From: Nannochloropsis salina CCMP1776 | Lineage: Eukaryota > Sar > Eustigmatophyceae > Eustigmatales > Monodopsidaceae | Length of the DNA stretch: 64,000 nt | Direction: 5' to 3' | NCBI GenBank assembly: GCA_004565275.1 | Contig: SDOX01000001.1 | Location: 496,001 to 560,000, forward strand | In this document: piece by piece, positions 6,301-56,284 of the stretch | Layout of the letters: every line of letters starts with the position of its first letter | How positions within the stretch are numbered: the stretch's first letter is position 1 | The notes under the pieces: generated by a model | Database searches by the model: none | The model's input: the letters and a program-made list of their open reading frames with translations, nothing else | Told to the model about the DNA's origin: nothing | Program-made: the position numbers and the translations under genes

Positions 6301-6664
6301 GATCTCTATATCATCTCTGTTTCAAAGACTTGCTGTTTCCAGTCCTGTTTCAAAGTTGTACAGCGAAATTCTCGTAAACCTCCTACCTACTAGCACCTTT
6401 CTGCTTGCAGTCTTTGTCCGCGTTGAAAGTGATTTCTCTGCCAGGCAGTGGAAGAAAATGTGAAAGGATCGTGTTAAGATACATCGAGTTGTATAATGCG
6501 CACTAAACTTCTTTGGCGCTCTTGGCATGTTCCGAGAAGTGTGTTGCAAGCTTCTTCCGCGATTAGCCTCAGGCTAGCTCGCCCAGCCGAGAGGGGTCGT
6601 ACGTCCTCAGTGATAGTCCTTCTCATCTAATAATGCAAACACCATCATTAAATTATCGGTAGTC
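6301..6664. promoter_or_regulatory. Divergent promoter region
   Basis: The 364 bp between the start codons of the minus-strand membrane protein and the plus-strand WD40 gene must hold both promoters. I see no clear TATA box or repeated operator-like motif. The call rests only on the gene arrangement. Confidence 0.4.
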
Positions 6665-7996
6665 ATGCAGGGACAGTGTGTTGATGAACCAAAGGACAAA
6701 AATGCGAGGCTTTCGTCCGATCGAGGCCCTTCGAAGGCCTCATCTATGTGTCTATGGGGATCTCAAGCAACAGCATTACCGCAGGCACATAGCGAGCGGG
6801 TTTTCGACCTAGCCTTCGACAAATCCAACAGGTGGATGGCCTCAGCCTCTGATGCTGAAGATGTGAAAATTTGGGACGTCGCAGCTAATGGAGAAGTGCC
6901 AAAACTTTTGCAGAGGCTCCCGCATGCAGCTGAAGTGCTTCGAGTTGCCTGGAAAGGGCAACCGAGGGATGGAGAGCAACCGAGGGATGGCGAAAGGGTT
7001 GCTGATCTTCCGAACACAACATCATGGTTTGCCACTGGTACCGCCGCAGGAACTGTACGTATATATTCTGTGACAGCACAGGCGAAAAGCGAGAGAAATC
7101 CGAATATGAGTCATGACCAAAAGGAAGCTGGTGCGACCTTTGCCTTGAAAACCGAATTTGCGCATCCCGGCCCGGATCAGCAAATTTATGCGCTTCTTTG
7201 GCTCGAGACTACAGAACTGAATTCTCAGCCTTCACTCATGACGGCCGCGGACGACAAAATCTACTGGTGGGACGTGGAGAACCAGAGCTTGACTAACACG
7301 TGGGCCTTCGACTCCGTGGCTCCAACGACAGAGCCAGGAAATCGGGCGGCCTACGGCGGCGTCAAACGGAACCCTGCAAACATTTGCTACATATTTGACG
7401 CCGTTGTGGGTGAGCTGTACCCCGGGCAGGGCGAAGACGTGGTGTGTGTGGCCCTGAGCGACGGAAGTGTGCGCGTGCTCGATCGCCGGTCGGCCCGTAC
7501 GGTTGCCAGGGTGCAGGGGGCGGAGGGGCACCTGACTGCATTGCGCCTTGCCACCCATGAACATCTGCTCTTAGCGTGCGGAGGACGCGGCGACGTGGTT
7601 GCTTTCGATACACGAACCTTCTCCGTGCGCGCTGTCTTGAAGGGCCATGGACGGCCGGTGTTCGGTGCTGCGCTTGTGCCCCCCGACCTGACAAATTGTT
7701 TTGGAAGCGAAGGTATCAAGGCGCCAATGGTGATGACCTGGTCGACGGACACGACGCTACGCTTCTTCGACCTGAATACCGGCAATTCCACAGCCCGCCA
7801 TGTCGCGTGCCACCCACGTTTTCCGATTTTGACTTGCGCGTTCAGCCCCGGGCACAGACAGCTTGTTTTGGGGGGGGGGACGGGAGTGCCAGAACCACAC
7901 ACGCACCTGCCTCAGGATCTACAGAAGACAGGAAAATGTTGCGCACATGGCGATGTCAAGCCTCCATCGCTCCTATACTACAATCTTCATGGCTAA
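6665..7996 (+). CDS. WD40-repeat beta-propeller protein
   Basis: Single-exon gene for 443 residues. About seven WD-type repeats can be followed, for example ending in VKIWDV (near 75), VRIYSV, IYWWDV, VRVLDRRS, VVAFDTRT and LRFFDLNTG, which makes a complete propeller. It has no extra domain, signal peptide or membrane segment, so it is probably a cytosolic or nuclear scaffold. The exact subfamily is not clear. An 18-bp in-frame tandem duplication near 6957-6992 repeats the residues QPRDGE. A run of nine G at about 7869-7877 lies in the last repeat, and the wording after it (VPEPHTHLPQ) no longer looks like a WD repeat. The +1 frame reads GGGDGSAR there, closer to the family pattern, so a homopolymer length error is possible. 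The next gene on the other strand ends only 79 bp downstream. Confidence 0.8.
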   Translation: MQGQCVDEPKDKNARLSSDRGPSKASSMCLWGSQATALPQAHSERVFDLAFDKSNRWMASASDAEDVKIWDVAANGEVPKLLQRLPHAAEVLRVAWKGQPRDGEQPRDGERVADLPNTTSWFATGTAAGTVRIYSVTAQAKSERNPNMSHDQKEAGATFALKTEFAHPGPDQQIYALLWLETTELNSQPSLMTAADDKIYWWDVENQSLTNTWAFDSVAPTTEPGNRAAYGGVKRNPANICYIFDAVVGELYPGQGEDVVCVALSDGSVRVLDRRSARTVARVQGAEGHLTALRLATHEHLLLACGGRGDVVAFDTRTFSVRAVLKGHGRPVFGAALVPPDLTNCFGSEGIKAPMVMTWSTDTTLRFFDLNTGNSTARHVACHPRFPILTCAFSPGHRQLVLGGGTGVPEPHTHLPQDLQKTGKCCAHGDVKPPSLLYYNLHG

Positions 7997-48871: not shown

Positions 48872-49897
48872 TTGTCTCATATGTCGTCGATGCAATTCTG
48901 TAGTAGTACTATGACCTTCGCCTCCTCTCACTTACCTCCCCTACATCTCGATTCAGGGCTCGTGCGTATGGCTCCAGACGTGGCTGCGTTAAGGAAGTGC
49001 CTCCTGGACGTAAGTCAGCCTATTCAGAAGCGTACTCACGCAGCATTCGTTCTGCGAACAGACGGAGAATCTGAAGCCGTGTCTGCGATCGGAGAGGCTC
49101 TACGGAATAAACAAGACTCAGCCTTACTTCGCCATGAGCTGGCATATGTCCTTGGTCAGATTGGTGACCGCAAGGCGTGTCCCAACCTGATTGCTGTTCT
49201 ATCAGACGAAAATGATGACTCTATGGTCCGGCACGAGGCCGCTGAGGCCTTGGGTGCTATTGGCGAGGTTGAGGCCGTGCCGGTCCTGGAGACCTTCGTC
49301 CGGGACTCCGTGCCTGAAGTGGCCGACACATGTCGCCTTTCCTTAGACTTAATCCGCTGGAGGCATCAAAGGGGGGAGGATGCCAGCCTTGCTCAAGAAA
49401 AGGGGCAGATCGGGCTGGACAAGAGCCCATACATGTCCGTGGACCCGGCCCCAGCGGACCGCGTGGATGTGAGCACCGCCGAGCTGGAAGCTCGTCTTCT
49501 GGACACTTCCTTGCCTCTCTTCGCCCGGTACCGCGCCATGTTCTCCCTCAGAAACCGGAACACGACGGAGGCCGTGGCCGCCCTCGCCCAGGGGTTGAAG
49601 GACCCGAGCCCCCTCTTCCGCCACGAGGTGGCTTACGTCTTCGGACAGATGCAGAATCCGGCGTCGGTGCCCGCCCTGAGGGCCGTCTTGGAGGACGGGA
49701 CGGAGCATCGGATGGTGCGACACGAGGCCGCGGAGGCCCTGGGGGCGGTGGGGGGCGCAGACTGCGAGGGCGTGCTGGCGAGGTTCGTGCGGGACGAGGA
49801 GGTGGTCGTGCGCGAGAGCTGTGAGGTGGCCCTAGGGATCGCTGAGTACTGGGGGGAGTCGGTGGCGCGAGAGGTAGTGGAAAGCTCGGCGTCCTAG
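48872..49897 (+). CDS. DOHH: Deoxyhypusine hydroxylase
   Basis: Di-iron HEAT-repeat enzyme that completes hypusine on translation factor eIF5A. Single-exon frame of 341 residues. Two four-repeat halves each carry the paired His-Glu metal ligands: LLRHELAYVLGQIGD and MVRHEAAEALGAIGE in the first half, LFRHEVAYVFGQMQN and MVRHEAAEALGAVGG in the second, so all four HE pairs are intact. The linker has PYMSVDPAPA, close to the family's PYLSVDPAPP, and the second half opens with LPLFARYRAMFSLRN. Family similarity begins at MAPDVAALRK, so the ATG at 48968 (309 residues, human 302) is the likelier start. The upstream 32 residues look like leader. Soluble, cytosolic. It converges with the capping enzyme gene, 170 bp between stops. 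Confidence 0.93.
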   Translation: MSHMSSMQFCSSTMTFASSHLPPLHLDSGLVRMAPDVAALRKCLLDVSQPIQKRTHAAFVLRTDGESEAVSAIGEALRNKQDSALLRHELAYVLGQIGDRKACPNLIAVLSDENDDSMVRHEAAEALGAIGEVEAVPVLETFVRDSVPEVADTCRLSLDLIRWRHQRGEDASLAQEKGQIGLDKSPYMSVDPAPADRVDVSTAELEARLLDTSLPLFARYRAMFSLRNRNTTEAVAALAQGLKDPSPLFRHEVAYVFGQMQNPASVPALRAVLEDGTEHRMVRHEAAEALGAVGGADCEGVLARFVRDEEVVVRESCEVALGIAEYWGESVAREVVESSAS

Positions 49898-50067: not shown

Positions 50068-53000
50068 TTACGAGCGCTCCATCCTAAATACCATGACGGA
50101 GTAAAGCTGAATGGCCTCCCACTCCTCCTCAGTCACCAGTCCCACCCTCAGAGCCTCCAGCAGGTGCCCGTACTCGGACAAGTGCTCGTGGACAAAGCTC
50201 CCAAAGTTGCGGCGATAGACCAGCTTCAGGTTTGCCACCCTCGCAGCGATCTCTGCCAGCTCCAAGGCGGGAACCACGTACTCGGCGCATGCCTCTACGG
50301 CGGAGGAGAGGGAGAAAGTGTAGCGCCGGCCGAGGCGATGGAGCAGCGGTCCCCCGTCTCCCCTGGCATCGCTGAGAGAATCCGGGGAGAATTCTACCCG
50401 GTAGACGGCATTCCCGAACTTTCCTGATGGGTGGAGAGCGAGGTGTTGACCGAGGGTACGGTCATCCACGCACGTGAGGATGAGCAAGCCGTCATCCCTC
50501 AGGAGGCGACCTACGTCCCGAAGCAGTCCAGAGAGGCAAGTCTCGGAGGCGCACGCGTAATGGAGGGCAAATTGGATGGATACAGCGTCAAAGCCCCTTC
50601 CATTACGCTCCAACTCCTCGTCCAGACCTTTTCCGCCAAGCCGGTCAATCACGGCGTCGGCCACGGTCCCGCTGAGCATGCTGTGTCGAAACACACAGGG
50701 ACACCTGGGCCTCCCCCTCCGTCGCTGGCTCTCCTCGACTCGGCTACGGCACTCTATCACGCTCTGCTCCGAGCTGTCAAAGCCCACGTAGATGTCGGCG
50801 CCTTGCATCACCCACTTTCCCACGTCCCCGCCTCGCCCACAGGCCATGTCAATCACTGCCCGCAGCCCGCCCCGGCACCCTCTCCTTCGGTCGCCGTCCT
50901 TTTCACTGCCTCCGCTGAGAGCGGCGGCGTTTCGGTCCTCCACGGTAGCCAACGGGTTGCTCATGGCGCCTAGATGCTGGTCCTCCTCTGTCACAGGCTT
51001 CTCGTCATTCGCAAGTCTCCGCCGCAACCCCCCGCACATCTCTATCAGGACAGCCTTGATCCAGTTATTGAGGCGCCGTAAGTTGTGGATGCGCGGGTCC
51101 AAGGCCCCTTCTCCCGCTTCCCACCGCCTTTTCTGCAGCACATCATAATGATCAGCCACCTCGTCCACAGTAGGCTTCTCTCCTTTCTCCGGACACGACG
51201 GTTCAACCCGCAGCCTCTCCAGCGCCTCCACCAGCTCCTCAAGAGCCAAGCCCTCCGCCAGGGCCTCCAAGTTGTTCCAGGCCGTCTGGACGGAATTTGG
51301 CCTAGCTTTATCGCCTCGAATCAGCCGCAACACCCAAGAGCCTGCCCCGCCCCCTGCCCCCCGCACAAAGTCGCACTCCACCACGCACTCGCTGGGCTTC
51401 TCATCTGTCCCCGACAGGGACGGAGCCCCCTCCACACCTTTGAAGTGATCCACCAGACGGCGGTAGGCGTCCTCCCGCCACAAGTCGAGCGCTGTAAATT
51501 TGGTGTCGAACTTCATGAGCGTCAAGTAGAGCGGTACTTCCCAAAGCCCGTTCCCGGCGGACGAGGCATCGTCCAAGTCGGTCTTTTTCACCTTGAAATC
51601 GATACTAATGCGGCCAGGTGTCTTGAATTTGTGGACTTGATAAAGATAGTAAGGCACACAGGAAGGCGTGAAGACCAAGCCATCTGAGATGGAACGACGC
51701 TGCCCATCGTCAAAAACAAACTGGTCCATTCTGGCCTGAGCCTCTCTCTCCTCCACCACTTCGACAGCCTCCTGCGTGCTCTCGTCGCTCTTACCCCCGC
51801 AGGGCCGCATCATCGTGTTCAACATGCCAGAGAGACGGTCCAAAGCATAGAACTCCTTGGGGAGGATCGTTAGCGTGCATCCGGGGCGGCTGAGGCCGAA
51901 TTTGACCGAGAGCGGGCCACGCGCTGGCGTCGGACTAGAGCCAATGACGTCTTTCAGCGCCTGCATGCGCGCGCCCAAGGACGGGATGGCGCCCACGTCC
52001 CTCCCATCCAAGAACACCACGTCAAACACCAGAAACAGGAATGCGTCCCCTGTCGCCCCCCCGTTCCGACCTTCTTCCTCTCCTCTGTCGCGCCCTGGGG
52101 CAGGCAAGGGCCGCACGAGCTCCCCATCCAAGAGAGTTGTCTCTCCTCGCGGGCTCAGGACCGACGACAGCCCCCAGTCCCCTCCATCCTCCGCCAAGCG
52201 CTCCACCTTCCACTGTCGGTCGAGCAAGAACCCCCCCGCTCGCCCTCCACCCGCTTCCTCGATCTCCTCTCGAACCTTTTCCTCCGGCACAAGCAGGAAG
52301 AGGCGCGTGCCGTCAGACTTCTCGCACACGACGTGAGGGGGGGCGCGTGGCCCCGCCACCTCCACCAGGTTCTTTCGACGCAATTGGATCGCTCTCGGGC
52401 CCGGCGTCTCCTTCCTTTCCATGTAGTGCCCGACCGTCAAGTCTGGTCTCTCCCGACGCATGCACTCGGAGGCACAGAACGCCTGCAGCACGACCGCCTT
52501 CAGCCGCGACAGATCGTAGGGAGGGATCGGGTGGGCGGTGGGGAAAAAGGCCGAGGCGGTTCCCCGGACATAGGCTCCGCTGTCGGGGGTCTGGGCCATG
52601 GCGCGAAGATGAGCAACGAGCTCTCCCTCCAAGGAGAGGAGGTCGTCCGGGGGCTGGGCGGCATCACTGTACTCTGGCACCAGGACGCAGGTTCCCAAAG
52701 GGTTGCGCTCGAACTTCTCCAAGTGGTTGTCCACCAGGATCGTGCTGCTCGCATCGAAGGCCACCCGGTCCAGCTGCTGCTTCCAGAGCCGGGAGAGGTC
52801 CTTGAGAAAGAGGGGCTTGTCGACGGAGACCGCGGAGTGCCGCGGCCAGAGATTGATGCTGTGGGCACTGTAGTTCGAGAAGAGGAGGTCTTTCTCCCGG
52901 GCGCCGAAGACGCCCAGTTCCATCGTCTCCTTGTTGCAGCAGCTCCAGCAGGCCACGTGGAAGTGCTCAAAGCAGAAGTCCAGAAACTCCTCGCACTTGG

Positions 53001-54195
53001 GTCGCTTCTGGATCTCTCCCAGCCCTCGCCGCTCGTCGTGCACCGAGTACCGGTTGAAGAGGACGCCGTTCAGGTCCAGGATGAGGAGCTTCCTCTCGGG
53101 GACGAGGATCAGCTCCACCCGCGGCTTGCCCCCCACCGGGCGCTCCATGCTTTTGACCCTGAGCGGTAGCAGCCACTCAGGACGAACTAAGCCTGGAGCC
53201 CATTCCCGGGCCCGGAGCACCCGCCTCTCCATGTCGGCGATCCACGGGCTGGGCAGGCCGGAGCGCGTGATGCGGCCGGAACACTCGAAGCTGCGAAATT
53301 TCCCGCCGGGGTCCAGGCGCCCGAAGTAAAAGAAAAAGCCGTGCATCTCGTGCGAAGCGTACACAAATCCCTGGTAGGTCCCATCCACCTCCGCGTCGTC
53401 GAGGGACAAGGGCTCGCCTCGAGAAAGAGGGGTCTGGTCCCCGGTCCGAGCTCCCTCCCGCCCCGCCTCCTTCCCAGGCCTGCCCACATGACACGCCTGT
53501 GCGCCTTGCAAGCCTCTGCCTTGACCCTTCGCATACGGCGACTCGGACCGCGTGCTGCTTGACTCCTCTCCAAAATCCATGGGCCGATCGGAACGCGCTC
53601 CCGTCCCCCTCCCGTCGCCCAGATTTCTCCTCCACTCCCCGCGCCCTCCTCCTTGCCTCCCGATTTTGGCGTGTCCACGACGCACATCTTGATGCTCTTG
53701 TCGGCTTGGCGGGAGCTCCCGACCGCCCCATCTGCCCTGGCCCAACTCCCTCTCTCCCCTCCGCGGGGCATCGCCCAAGTCACCGGCCCGCCCGCGTCCC
53801 GCACTGCCATACCCGGCTCTCCGTCTGCCCCGTGCGTCCTCCCTGTCCAGGCCCCTCTCAGTGTGCTTGTACCGCTCAGGGTACTCCGACTCAATGCCTC
53901 CTCTGCTCCTTTGGTCCCCGGCTCGGCCATCCAAGTCGTCATCTCGATCCTGCGGGCGACTGCCCGCACGGCCTCCCCGCCTACCGCGATAGCTATCCGA
54001 CCATTCTCGCTTTCCACCGCCCCGCACATCCCCAGAGGCAAGAGAATGGGACTGCGGAGATTTATGATTGACGTGCATGCCACTTTCCCGATTGCCGTGT
54101 TTTTCAAAGTCCCTCCCACGTTCATCGTCAAATTCCTCCCCCCATCTCCTCACATCAAGGCTTCCACGACGTCCTCGTCTGCTTTCCTCTCTCAT
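50068..54195 (-). CDS. Fused mRNA capping enzyme: HAD phosphatase-like + guanylyltransferase + N7-methyltransferase
   Basis: Single-exon gene for 1375 residues with three catalytic modules. Residues 1-240 are a disordered Arg/Gly/Asp-rich tail. Residues ~362-530 are a HAD/FCP1-like fold (LLILDLNGVLFNRY, D374 with Asn at 376 where phosphatases usually have Asp; HILVDNH-like DNHLEKF near 489). Residues ~560-960 are an mRNA guanylyltransferase: EKSDGTRLFLL with nucleophile K626, LLDGELV, LVFDVVFLDG, ISDGLVFTP and SIDFKVKK, the nucleotidyltransferase motifs in order, then an OB-like region. Residues ~1090-1375 are the cap guanine-N7 methyltransferase: VIDMACGRGGDVGKW (SAM motif near 1118-1124), VGFDSSEQS and FALHYACASE. 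Guanylyl- and methyltransferase in one chain is known in some viruses and protists. The HAD module is unusual and may stand in for a phosphatase; that role is inference. Confidence 0.88.
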   Translation of the reverse strand: MREESRRGRRGSLDVRRWGEEFDDERGRDFEKHGNRESGMHVNHKSPQSHSLASGDVRGGGKREWSDSYRGRRGGRAGSRPQDRDDDLDGRAGDQRSRGGIESEYPERYKHTERGLDREDARGRRRAGYGSAGRGRAGDLGDAPRRGERELGQGRWGGRELPPSRQEHQDVRRGHAKIGRQGGGRGEWRRNLGDGRGTGARSDRPMDFGEESSSTRSESPYAKGQGRGLQGAQACHVGRPGKEAGREGARTGDQTPLSRGEPLSLDDAEVDGTYQGFVYASHEMHGFFFYFGRLDPGGKFRSFECSGRITRSGLPSPWIADMERRVLRAREWAPGLVRPEWLLPLRVKSMERPVGGKPRVELILVPERKLLILDLNGVLFNRYSVHDERRGLGEIQKRPKCEEFLDFCFEHFHVACWSCCNKETMELGVFGAREKDLLFSNYSAHSINLWPRHSAVSVDKPLFLKDLSRLWKQQLDRVAFDASSTILVDNHLEKFERNPLGTCVLVPEYSDAAQPPDDLLSLEGELVAHLRAMAQTPDSGAYVRGTASAFFPTAHPIPPYDLSRLKAVVLQAFCASECMRRERPDLTVGHYMERKETPGPRAIQLRRKNLVEVAGPRAPPHVVCEKSDGTRLFLLVPEEKVREEIEEAGGGRAGGFLLDRQWKVERLAEDGGDWGLSSVLSPRGETTLLDGELVRPLPAPGRDRGEEEGRNGGATGDAFLFLVFDVVFLDGRDVGAIPSLGARMQALKDVIGSSPTPARGPLSVKFGLSRPGCTLTILPKEFYALDRLSGMLNTMMRPCGGKSDESTQEAVEVVEEREAQARMDQFVFDDGQRRSISDGLVFTPSCVPYYLYQVHKFKTPGRISIDFKVKKTDLDDASSAGNGLWEVPLYLTLMKFDTKFTALDLWREDAYRRLVDHFKGVEGAPSLSGTDEKPSECVVECDFVRGAGGGAGSWVLRLIRGDKARPNSVQTAWNNLEALAEGLALEELVEALERLRVEPSCPEKGEKPTVDEVADHYDVLQKRRWEAGEGALDPRIHNLRRLNNWIKAVLIEMCGGLRRRLANDEKPVTEEDQHLGAMSNPLATVEDRNAAALSGGSEKDGDRRRGCRGGLRAVIDMACGRGGDVGKWVMQGADIYVGFDSSEQSVIECRSRVEESQRRRGRPRCPCVFRHSMLSGTVADAVIDRLGGKGLDEELERNGRGFDAVSIQFALHYACASETCLSGLLRDVGRLLRDDGLLILTCVDDRTLGQHLALHPSGKFGNAVYRVEFSPDSLSDARGDGGPLLHRLGRRYTFSLSSAVEACAEYVVPALELAEIAARVANLKLVYRRNFGSFVHEHLSEYGHLLEALRVGLVTEEEWEAIQLYSVMVFRMERS

Positions 54196-54418: not shown

Positions 54419-56284
54419 ATGCGGGAAGTAGAGATCGGTGCATGCGACGCTCTTTCCCCGACCCAGGATTACTTGCAAGGTGAGAGCACATTAACCTCCC
54501 CGAGAGCCATACCTCCGCGCCCGGGCTTTCCCCTCTCTATATTCCGTACTCAACCATACGAGCACATCAGGGGCCTCGTTCCTTGACGGGAAATGCATTA
54601 TTGTTCTACCTCTCGACGGCAAGGCGGTGCTTGTGAGTATACCCTTGGTGCAAAGGAACTCAAGCGCAAGCACGCAGACAGTGGGCACGTACGGTGCAAA
54701 AAACGGTACTCTGCATCTAGCATCTGTATCACCTTGTGCAACAAGGCTGGCACTAACTTTTGCATGCGGCATTCTAGAGGTTTATGAGGTCGTTATGAAC
54801 GCGGAGGGCCGTTATGTGGAGGCTGTGACCTTTCTTGCGTCGACTCGAGGAGAGAGGTGAGTCTCCGGTTGTTGAGGTCGAGGAGGGTCTAGTCTTTCGT
54901 GAGTCACGAGTCTCCGTACAATATTATCCCAAGCAAGAAGATACGAAAGCTAAGTTGGCAGTGCACTTCAAAGGCAGCTTATCTAGGCGTGTCAGATGTC
55001 CGACGATTGCGCGTCTATGACTGCAGAGCTGGAGGTACGGGTGGTCTGGCGCTCGTCCACGAGACGATACTTTCAGAGCCCATAAACGACTGGTCATGGC
55101 TGGACTCCCAACGAATCACTTTATTGTTGGATAATGGTGTGCAACTGTGCGATTTGAGGCCGAATGCTCGGTCGGTAGGCGTCATGTCATGCGAGGCACC
55201 AGACTCTCGGGCCTTGGGTGTGGGATTTCAGGAGAAAAGAAAGGTCATGTCCCCTGTGCTAGTCAGCGGCGATACAGTTTACTTTGCCATCCTTACAGAG
55301 CCATGTTTGCAGACGCAAGTATGTTCTGCAAGTAGGAAGCATCGCGGGATGAACGAGACCCTGGCGAGGTTACGCGGCCTGCAAGGGCAGATCCGGCAAA
55401 GAGAGAACATGGAGAGGGAGGGCGTCCAGGAGGATGATGGGAGCAAAACTAACGCTATGTCATTGAAGGGAGGAGGGAAGGAGAAGGTGAAGGCACCAGC
55501 TGTGACAGAGGACGGGGGGAGCGTCGGTATCGGTAACAATAGCATCGAGGTTATCGATTTGTGCGGGAAGCTCGGTCTCGGCTCTGAGAGCGATCCTGCC
55601 GCGTCGCCTTCTTCTCTGCTCCACAGCCTGATCCAAAATTGCTCACGTCTTAAAGTCCTCAGCCTCGACACGTCATTTTCGTCCCCTGATCAACAGGCCA
55701 AGCTAGTGGTCTCAAGGTTTATGGCCGGAGGCGCTGCAAGGCGGGAGGTCGTCCTGACCACTCTCGCCCAGGACGGAAGGCCCTCGCTGCTCGCTGCTTC
55801 TCGGACACACCTTGCCCTCGCCGACCCATGGCGCTCCGTCCTGCACGTCTTTTTTCTCCCCGATCGTTTCCCCCGCGTCGCCACGACAGAGAAGCGCATG
55901 CTTGAGCTTCCTGTCGGCTTTCTCCCCCGCGGTCTTGTCCTGGCGGCGTCCGGGGGGCTCTATTGTCTGGCCACTCAAATTAAGCAAGGGAAGGGCAGCG
56001 AGGAGGGCTCGGCCACCTCCTGGAAGCTACTCCACTTCCCTCTCCAAGAGCCTGGAGCCAGTCCGGAGGCTGGGCTGCCGACGTGCCCGCCCCCAGGGGG
56101 CCCTTCATGTGGACCGAGGGCGGCCTGGCCAAAAGCTCCCTCCTCAATAACGGGCGACGTTCAGCTCCGAGAGAAGGCGGACATAGTGGCACTGGTCCAG
56201 GGCCTTGAGCGGAGGATGAACGCACGCTTTGACGCTCTGGAAGCCCGCCTGGACGGGCTCGCACGGCATCTCGGCGCTCTGTGA
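54419..56284 (+). CDS. Beta-propeller-like protein with C-terminal coiled coil
   Basis: Three exons fit phase: 54419-54479, 54571-54856 and 54934-56284 (introns 91 and 77 nt), giving 565 residues. I do not recognise the family. The sequence shows WD-like strands without strong WD dipeptides, for example FLDGKCIIVLPLDGKAVLV, LALTFACGILEVYEV, KAAYLGVSDVRRLRVYDCR and WSWLDSQRITLLLDNGVQLC, suggesting one divergent propeller in residues 15-230. A low-complexity region (about 255-300) and a further beta-rich part (320-440) follow. The last 45 residues are a regular heptad coiled coil (ALVQGLERRMNARFDALEAR). No signal peptide or membrane helix. A nuclear pore or tethering component would fit that layout but this is a guess. 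The exon 2/3 join is supported by phase and by the continuing propeller pattern. Confidence 0.65.

Follow-up and report, generated by a model that had tools for sequence, protein, structure and literature searches.

In the eustigmatophyte alga Nannochloropsis salina CCMP1776, a single long open reading frame joins an RNA guanylyltransferase and a cap guanine-N7 methyltransferase, as recognized by motifs and profiles, to a NIF/FCP1-type HAD domain. The families are known, and their combination, a capping enzyme fused to NIF/HAD, appears to be new. We found the frame in a 64,000-nucleotide stretch of the genome (the window), whose positions are used as coordinates below. Our best explanation, which we consider about evenly balanced between right and wrong, is that the chain is a capping guanylyltransferase-N7-methyltransferase fusion whose triphosphatase acts in trans and whose HAD domain handles the phosphorylated C-terminal domain (CTD) of Pol II.

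One reading frame with two capping domains

The frame (50068..54195) lies on the minus strand, as do all of the features described here; the first-pass annotation, which was made from the sequence of the window, had given no strand. It runs from an ATG to a stop, without an internal stop, and encodes 1375 amino acids: a low-complexity tail, a segment that precedes the HAD domain, the NIF/HAD domain, the guanylyltransferase, and the N7-methyltransferase. The first-pass annotation had placed three modules in this order on one chain and had picked out the motifs DLNGVL, KSDG, and ACGRGGD. Pfam matches and motif positions agree with that order, and the motifs are where it put them.

The stop-to-stop run at this locus is 1382 codons, versus a maximum of 337 codons in 60 Markov-simulated 64-kb sequences, so a chance origin of the frame is excluded. 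An artefact of the gene model (at least two genes read as one, or an assembly error that joined sequences in frame) seems extremely improbable. There are 1375 codons without a stop, and the coding bias is unbroken across both linkers: third-position GC is at least 0.65 in all 60-codon blocks from residue 61 to the end. Also, the nearest long non-overlapping frames, which we took as the neighbours, lie outside the frame, with one ending at 49897 and the other starting at 54899. What favours an artefact is the weak third-position bias of residues 1-60, where third-position GC is 0.47. Because of this low value, the true start may be downstream of the annotated ATG. The next in-frame Met codons are at residues 40 and 206.

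Three segments had no family match at E values up to 10. These are the Arg/Gly-rich low-complexity tail (residues 1-255, 53431..54195; 20% Gly, 20% Arg, and 15 RG), whose start is uncertain; the segment preceding the HAD domain (residues 256-368, 53092..53430); and the linker between the HAD domain and the guanylyltransferase (residues 524-615, 52351..52626), across which the coding bias carries on.

The guanylyltransferase domain (about residues 616-1000, 51196..52350) has six motifs in order: I at K626 (in the KSDG of EKSDG, residues 625-629), III at 688 (LLDGELV), IIIa at 721 (FLVFDVVF), IV at 837 (SDGLVFTP), V at 868 (KVKK), and VI at 960 (RGDKARPN). These are presumably the right residues for each motif, and aligning the chain with 3kyh (mRNA-capping enzyme subunit alpha) partly supports the assignment. 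The set of motifs I, III, IIIa, IV, V, and VI is the one named in PMC2904801 (this and the other papers are cited for excerpts). The Pfam models PF01331 and PF03919 match in order along the chain, at scores under their cut-offs (24.0 vs. 29.6 bits and 19.2 vs. 26.5 bits); PF03919 scored 22.9 bits on a sub-segment. When the 26.5 Mb genome was searched in six frames, a search that scores the best candidates only and takes exons singly, the two models scored 26.0 and 24.6 bits, and the window's frame was the sole guanylyltransferase match found with each model. Given the motifs, and with scores short of the Pfam cut-offs, the chain is most likely the organism's mRNA capping guanylyltransferase.

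The N7-methyltransferase domain spans about residues 1007-1371. Its start (residues 1007-1052, 51040..51177) is weak alone, at 20.8 bits, and reaches 63.2 bits with its neighbours in the frame. The core (residues 1113-1371, 50083..50859) matches PF03291, the cap N7-methyltransferase family, at 155.1 bits, versus a cut-off of 26.6 bits. The SAM-site motif DMACGRGGD (residues 1116-1124) and QFALHY align to 8q69 and 1ri1. When the whole chain was compared to its own genome, it matched itself and, by the methyltransferase only, contig C72, which carries a second and separate cap-methyltransferase gene.

A NIF-family HAD domain with an altered active site

Residues 369-523 (52627..53091) match the NIF family (PF03031) at 51.6 bits, versus a curated cut-off of 21.8 bits, so the profile check proposed in the first-pass annotation led to a known family. 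The DLNGVL motif (residues 374-379, 53059..53076) departs from the DxDx(T/V) signature: the sequence is DLNGV, with Val at the T/V position and, as the first-pass annotation had read it, Asn for the second Asp. Because the profile cut-off is passed and the signature is absent, the domain is a relative by homology, and its status as a phosphatase is predicted at most. Four of the five catalytic positions that we compared by alignment are kept (the five are D374, N376, S418, K465, and D489), with Ser for Thr at one of them; S418 is Ser or Thr in paralogues. In an alignment of the genome's NIF domains, a TIM50-like paralogue has Glu at the position of the second Asp, so this site varies within the family.

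The domain did not reach the cut-off of any NIF subfamily. Among the eukaryotic subfamily models listed, its best was HAD_IIID1 (UBLCP1 type, TIGR02245), with E = 4.1e-7 and 29.7 bits, versus a curated cut-off of 192.25. The SCP/Dullard model matched weakly (E = 0.024), and the FCP1 model was absent from those listed. When we compared the domain alone to solved structures, it matched one chain, from UBLCP1 (E = 0.01). A profile of six NIF domains from this genome, including the window's, led to the CTD phosphatases SCP1 and FCP1, mostly driven by the other five; the 17 solved NIF sequences that it matched go by the names of CTD phosphatase, nuclear-envelope phosphatase, UBLCP1, or TIM50. The alignment suggests that, of the SCP1 pocket residues, only the Arg is kept, along with the Tyr as Phe; the loops align poorly, and the pocket positions were located with what we take to be the SCP1 residue numbering. 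The genome also carries FCP1-like and SCP-like genes. By these sequence comparisons, the CTD phosphatases are not the nearest relatives of the HAD domain. AlphaFold2, run on the single sequence of residues 255-600, gave a mean pLDDT of 31.5, with 346 of 346 residues below 50.

In CTDSP1, the second Asp beside the nucleophile assists catalysis (PMC7281111, which also names the SCP1 pocket residues). Members of the NIF family can use other substrates: TbTim50 hydrolyses phosphatidic acid, and a double mutant with both Asp changed lost nearly 99% of its activity according to the text of PMC8546626, in whose table the values are 52.5 vs. 234 nmol/min/mg, with a GST background of 46.

A separate candidate for the first capping step

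The first-pass annotation saw no triphosphatase domain in the chain, and this holds as far as Pfam reaches: neither tunnel-type nor cysteine-type models matched. A three-function capping enzyme has the RNA triphosphatase in the same chain, and we found none in these 1375 residues. The first-pass annotation had also suggested a check for a separate triphosphatase of the Cet1 or cysteine type. Contig C47 encodes a cysteine-type candidate, with the loop HCSYGWNRTG and the tail FAQARPPGI. Its closest solved structure is an mRNA capping enzyme (2c46, E = 5.8e-16), followed by RNA/RNP complex-1-interacting phosphatase (presumably DUSP11; E = 9.1e-10) and polynucleotide 5'-phosphatase (1yn9, E = 1.6e-8). 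With its HCxxxxxR(S/T) loop and a capping enzyme as its closest match among solved structures, it is a plausible RNA triphosphatase. In Pfam it passes the cut-off only for DSPc, a general family, at 35.5 bits versus 33.5. When we read the loops of the genome's 12 DSPc matches, only this one had a capping-type loop together with the FAQARPPGI tail. The pattern HCxxGxNR matched 10 times in the genome, versus 9 times for the reversed control, and just 2 of the 10 matches are inside DSPc frames (HCQAGINRS on contig C6 and HCSYGWNRT on C47).

For the Cet1 type, PF02940 had no matches in this genome, and this zero is not proof of absence because 14 control genomes also gave none. A CYTH-type search had one match, a hydrolase-CYTH fusion on contig C36, which showed no sign of a capping role and was set aside.

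An ordinary stand-alone enzyme encoded elsewhere in the genome probably carries out the first step of capping. Once the C47 candidate was found, we dropped the HAD domain as an RNA triphosphatase from the position of main reading, and it now seems very unlikely that the domain is an unrecognized RNA 5'-triphosphatase or another kind of RNA 5'-end phosphatase. This idea, from the first-pass annotation, would suit a chain that lacks a triphosphatase domain, in a genome with no Cet1-type match (from a search that lacked a positive control), and C47 remains a sequence-based candidate. But the genome does have that cysteine-type candidate, the HAD active site is weakened, and none of the 17 solved NIF sequences is named as an RNA phosphatase. 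The modules, their order, the Asn, and the missing triphosphatase all stand; of the three roles that the first-pass annotation offered for the HAD domain (RNA 5'-phosphatase, CTD phosphatase coupled to Pol II, and dead scaffold), the RNA 5'-phosphatase option is largely removed. The first-pass annotation had said that its proposal would fail if the HAD part belonged to a known non-RNA family and a separate triphosphatase gene was present; the NIF match and the C47 candidate come near to that situation.

The Pol II CTD and other capping systems

Capping is tied to Pol II via the phosphorylated CTD. To our knowledge, the writers and erasers of the CTD phosphate mark are separate from the capping enzyme. 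Small internal exons of the genome's Rpb1 gene encode 13 heptads, each of which has Ser2 and Ser5, and the PF05001 match lies in frame within an 84-nt heptad exon. Because the heptads keep both serines, we prefer a CTD-linked role for the HAD domain.

We infer that the CTD is the target of the HAD domain, and we infer all of the enzyme activities. The C47 triphosphatase would take off the gamma phosphate, Lys626 would accept GMP from GTP and hand it to the diphosphate end, and the C-terminal domain would then methylate the guanine. The HAD domain would handle the phosphorylated CTD, either as a docking module or as a slow phosphatase, and this contact would hold the enzyme at the early polymerase. 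The domain lacks only the second Asp, having kept the nucleophile (D374), the Ser or Thr (S418), the Lys (K465), and the Asp further along (D489); it could therefore bind phosphoserine with poor or no turnover. A more specific proposal, which we offer tentatively and consider rather unlikely, is that one Asp-to-Asn change turned a former CTD phosphatase into a natural substrate trap. The trap would grip the CTD phosphorylated at Ser5 during cap addition and methylation by the same chain, and the triphosphatase would have separated into a free cysteine enzyme. Several observations count against a CTD target: the best score is to the UBLCP1 type, few SCP1 pocket residues appear to be kept, the genome has its own FCP1-like and SCP-like genes, and NIF proteins have other substrates.

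The domain might instead be inactive or structural and unconnected with CTD phosphate, for instance a scaffold that binds proteins and brings in the separate triphosphatase; we consider this possible but doubtful. Yeast Cet1p and Ceg1p pair via protein contacts (PMC3813497), and a triphosphatase that acts in trans would require recruitment. The Asn at the position of the second Asp, the low similarity to CTD phosphatases, and the near-inactivity of the TbTim50 double mutant (PMC8546626) also fit this idea. However, the remaining catalytic positions are kept, which would be needless in a purely structural domain. We think it unlikely that, the Asn notwithstanding, the domain works as a phosphatase on CTD Ser5/Ser2 and erases the mark once capping is done. 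It does retain the nucleophile and the three other catalytic residues named above; the NIF family takes in SCP1 and FCP1; Rpb1 has heptads with Ser2 and Ser5; and the second position varies in the family (the TIM50-like paralogue has Glu). But the DxDx(T/V) signature is absent, and the second Asp aids catalysis in CTDSP1 (PMC7281111).

The chain resembles several known systems in part. In Trypanosoma brucei, the single protein TbCGM1 acts both as a guanylyltransferase and as a cap methyltransferase, and TbCMT1 is a single-function methyltransferase (PMC6057678). N. salina similarly has both domains in one protein and a second, separate cap-methyltransferase gene (on C72); the likeness to TbCGM1 is in the paired activities, domain order aside. 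Unlike TbCGM1, the N. salina chain has an N-terminal NIF/HAD domain, and unlike trypanosomes, whose RNA triphosphatase is a metal-dependent tunnel enzyme (PMC4791841), N. salina has an unfused triphosphatase candidate of the cysteine type, which is the metazoan and plant class. In the capping enzyme of metazoans, plants, and Trichomonas, a cysteine-type triphosphatase is fused to the guanylyltransferase (PMC2904801). N. salina shares the class of triphosphatase (HCxxxxxRT) and the guanylyltransferase motif set, but the two are on different contigs and the guanylyltransferase is joined to the methyltransferase and the HAD domain instead. The three-function capping enzymes of viruses (vaccinia D1 and mimivirus) also have a guanylyltransferase and a methyltransferase in one chain, but we found no tunnel-type triphosphatase domain in the N. 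salina chain. As for the NIF/FCP1-SCP family (PF03031; SCP1, FCP1, TIM50, and UBLCP1), the HAD domain shares the fold, by profile, and four of five catalytic positions, and it differs in the Asn, in the fusion to a capping enzyme, and in reaching no subfamily cut-off.

Searches for relatives in viral contigs gave 3 pattern matches for the whole protein and 93 matches for the methyltransferase alignment, and the latter had 58 matches in genome contigs; none of these were confirmed. Phage records and PHROGs had no match to the protein. These searches say little about eukaryotes because the collections hold viruses and prokaryotes. In titles and abstract openings from the open-licence literature, we looked for a HAD-capping fusion or for capping enzymes from stramenopiles, algae, or protists, and none of the matches listed dealt with the fusion.

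If the HAD domain is truly kin to CTD phosphatases and fused to the guanylyltransferase, this would be direct evolutionary evidence for the coupling of capping to the CTD and would offer a simple setting in which to test that coupling. Also, the genome appears to keep a metazoan/plant-type triphosphatase apart from the guanylyltransferase, and these two are usually joined. The origin of the triphosphatase-guanylyltransferase fusion has been discussed from few lineages (PMC2904801). Finding parts of the same class unfused in one lineage would bear on whether the fused form is ancestral.

A three-module capping enzyme

As the first-pass annotation had proposed, positions 50068-54195 hold a single open frame of 1375 amino acids; it lies on the minus strand. 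The stop-to-stop run is 1382 codons, versus a maximum of 337 in 60 trials of a Markov simulation with the window's dinucleotide make-up. Third-position GC is at least 0.65 from residue 61 onward, both linkers included, and a gene-model artefact is scarcely credible; introns that keep the reading frame are conceivable. Over residues 1-60 it is 0.47, so the start of the protein is uncertain. Shorter frames also occur within the gene on both strands; of the nearest long non-overlapping frames, one ends at 49897 and the other begins at 54899. By eye, the convergent neighbor (48872-49897, plus strand) has HEAT-like repeats and resembles a deoxyhypusine hydroxylase.

The three annotated modules hold up. 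The NIF domain (the HAD domain; residues 369-523, 51.6 bits) and the cap N7-methyltransferase (residues 1113-1371, 155.1 bits) exceed Pfam's curated cut-offs. The capping guanylyltransferase is matched in two halves (residues 620-749 and 926-988, also minus strand), both of which fall below theirs. These weak scores are offset because all six guanylyltransferase motifs are present in order, and because each guanylyltransferase model matches this frame alone in a six-frame search of the assembly (103 contigs, 26.5 Mb; E up to 1). The best solved relative of this part, mRNA-capping enzyme subunit alpha (3kyh, which we take to be yeast Ceg1), is weak (E = 0.0095).

The assembly also encodes a second cap N7-methyltransferase (L011:1036-3153, contig C72, minus strand; 705 amino acids, 35% identity over the aligned part). 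Its first 200 residues look SPOC-like by eye, which neither Pfam (E up to 10) nor PDB supports. A fused enzyme plus a second methyltransferase resembles Trypanosoma brucei, which has the two-activity TbCGM1 and the single-activity TbCMT1 (PMC6057678).

A separate triphosphatase candidate

A search for a separate cysteine-type RNA triphosphatase, which the first-pass annotation had suggested, turned up a candidate of the metazoan/plant class: a 447-amino-acid frame on another contig (L037:2899-4242, C47, minus strand) with both HCSYGWNRTG and FAQARPPGI. Its best solved relatives by phmmer are named mRNA capping enzyme (2c46, 5.8e-16; 8p4b, 4.6e-15; 1i9s, 1.1e-14; presumably human and mouse), followed by RNA/RNP complex-1-interacting phosphatase (DUSP11, 9.1e-10); it also matches polynucleotide 5'-phosphatase 1yn9 (1.6e-8), which we take to be baculoviral. 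Among the assembly's 12 DSPc matches, this frame is the one of capping type. We found no guanylyltransferase fused to it, the sole match in the assembly being the window frame.

The window chain therefore need not supply the triphosphatase step. This counts against the earlier idea that the HAD domain is an RNA phosphatase, by the annotation's own reasoning, and we consider that role very unlikely. Instead, the C47 enzyme would make the diphosphate RNA end, and the window protein would add the cap and methylate it.

Fusions of a guanylyltransferase with a methyltransferase are known, as are NIF domains and cysteine-type triphosphatases. We did not find the combination of a NIF domain on a capping enzyme with a free cysteine-type triphosphatase among the open-licence papers listed by our searches, though protein databases may already carry it as an unremarked annotation.

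Separately, a single frame at L014:415-2199 (contig C36, plus strand) joins a CYTH domain to an alpha/beta hydrolase region that matches UPF0227 and related models.

A diverged HAD domain

We aligned all six NIF matches in the assembly, one of which (L006) is an incomplete exon that lacks the first motif. The window domain keeps the nucleophile D374, as well as K465 and D489, and has S418 at a position that is Thr or Ser in the other domains. The reported Asn in place of the second Asp is confirmed as N376; three of the four others showing the motif have Asp, and L005 has Glu. Across the superfamily in general, HAD enzymes with Asn at this position may bind substrate, yet turn it over poorly. 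A working CTD phosphatase is unlikely, and a scaffold is a possible but doubtful alternative.

CTDSP1 uses the first Asp as nucleophile and the next Asp assists (PMC7281111); in TbTim50, changing both to Ala lowered activity on pNPP and phosphatidic acid by almost 99%, according to the text of PMC8546626. The portions of the CTDSP1 and TbTim50 literature available yielded no test of a single Asp-to-Asn change.

The best-fitting model for the window domain is UBLCP1-type (E = 4.1e-7); SCP/Dullard fits weakly (E = 0.024), and FCP1 is not among the matches listed. The other five fit SCP/Dullard or FCP1 (E = 9e-34 or better), and two of them exceed the curated cut-off. These differing fits indicate a separate, diverged NIF lineage within the assembly.

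We give roughly even chances to a CTD-linked role, in which the domain would most likely touch the phosphorylated CTD. The support for it is indirect: the NIF family includes CTD phosphatases, as seen with a profile to which the other five domains contribute most, and the assembly's Rpb1 heptads all carry Ser2 and Ser5. Two points speak against this role: the CTD phosphatases are not the nearest match of the domain, and the domain's pocket is kept only in part, as far as the alignment is trustworthy.

Apparent heptad-sized exons in Rpb1

The Rpb1 gene was identified by Pfam (L042, C57:1133500-1143400, plus strand). Because this Pol II-type gene has apparent introns, we consider the assembly a nuclear eukaryotic genome. 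The 13 heptads of Rpb1 (11 of them AYSPSSP) lie in small internal exons, and judging by the predicted borders, the CTD appears to be spread over eight tiny ones (L042 positions 6529-7869). Their putative lengths (21, 42, 21, 21, 21, 21, 84 and 42 nt) are all multiples of 21 nt in the same phase, with one heptad per 21 nt. The nine predicted introns of this region (107-283 nt, GT/AG ends) are no more alike than shuffled sequence. A literature search found nothing on heptad-sized CTD exons. Exon skipping in Rpb1 would alter the length of the CTD by whole heptads.
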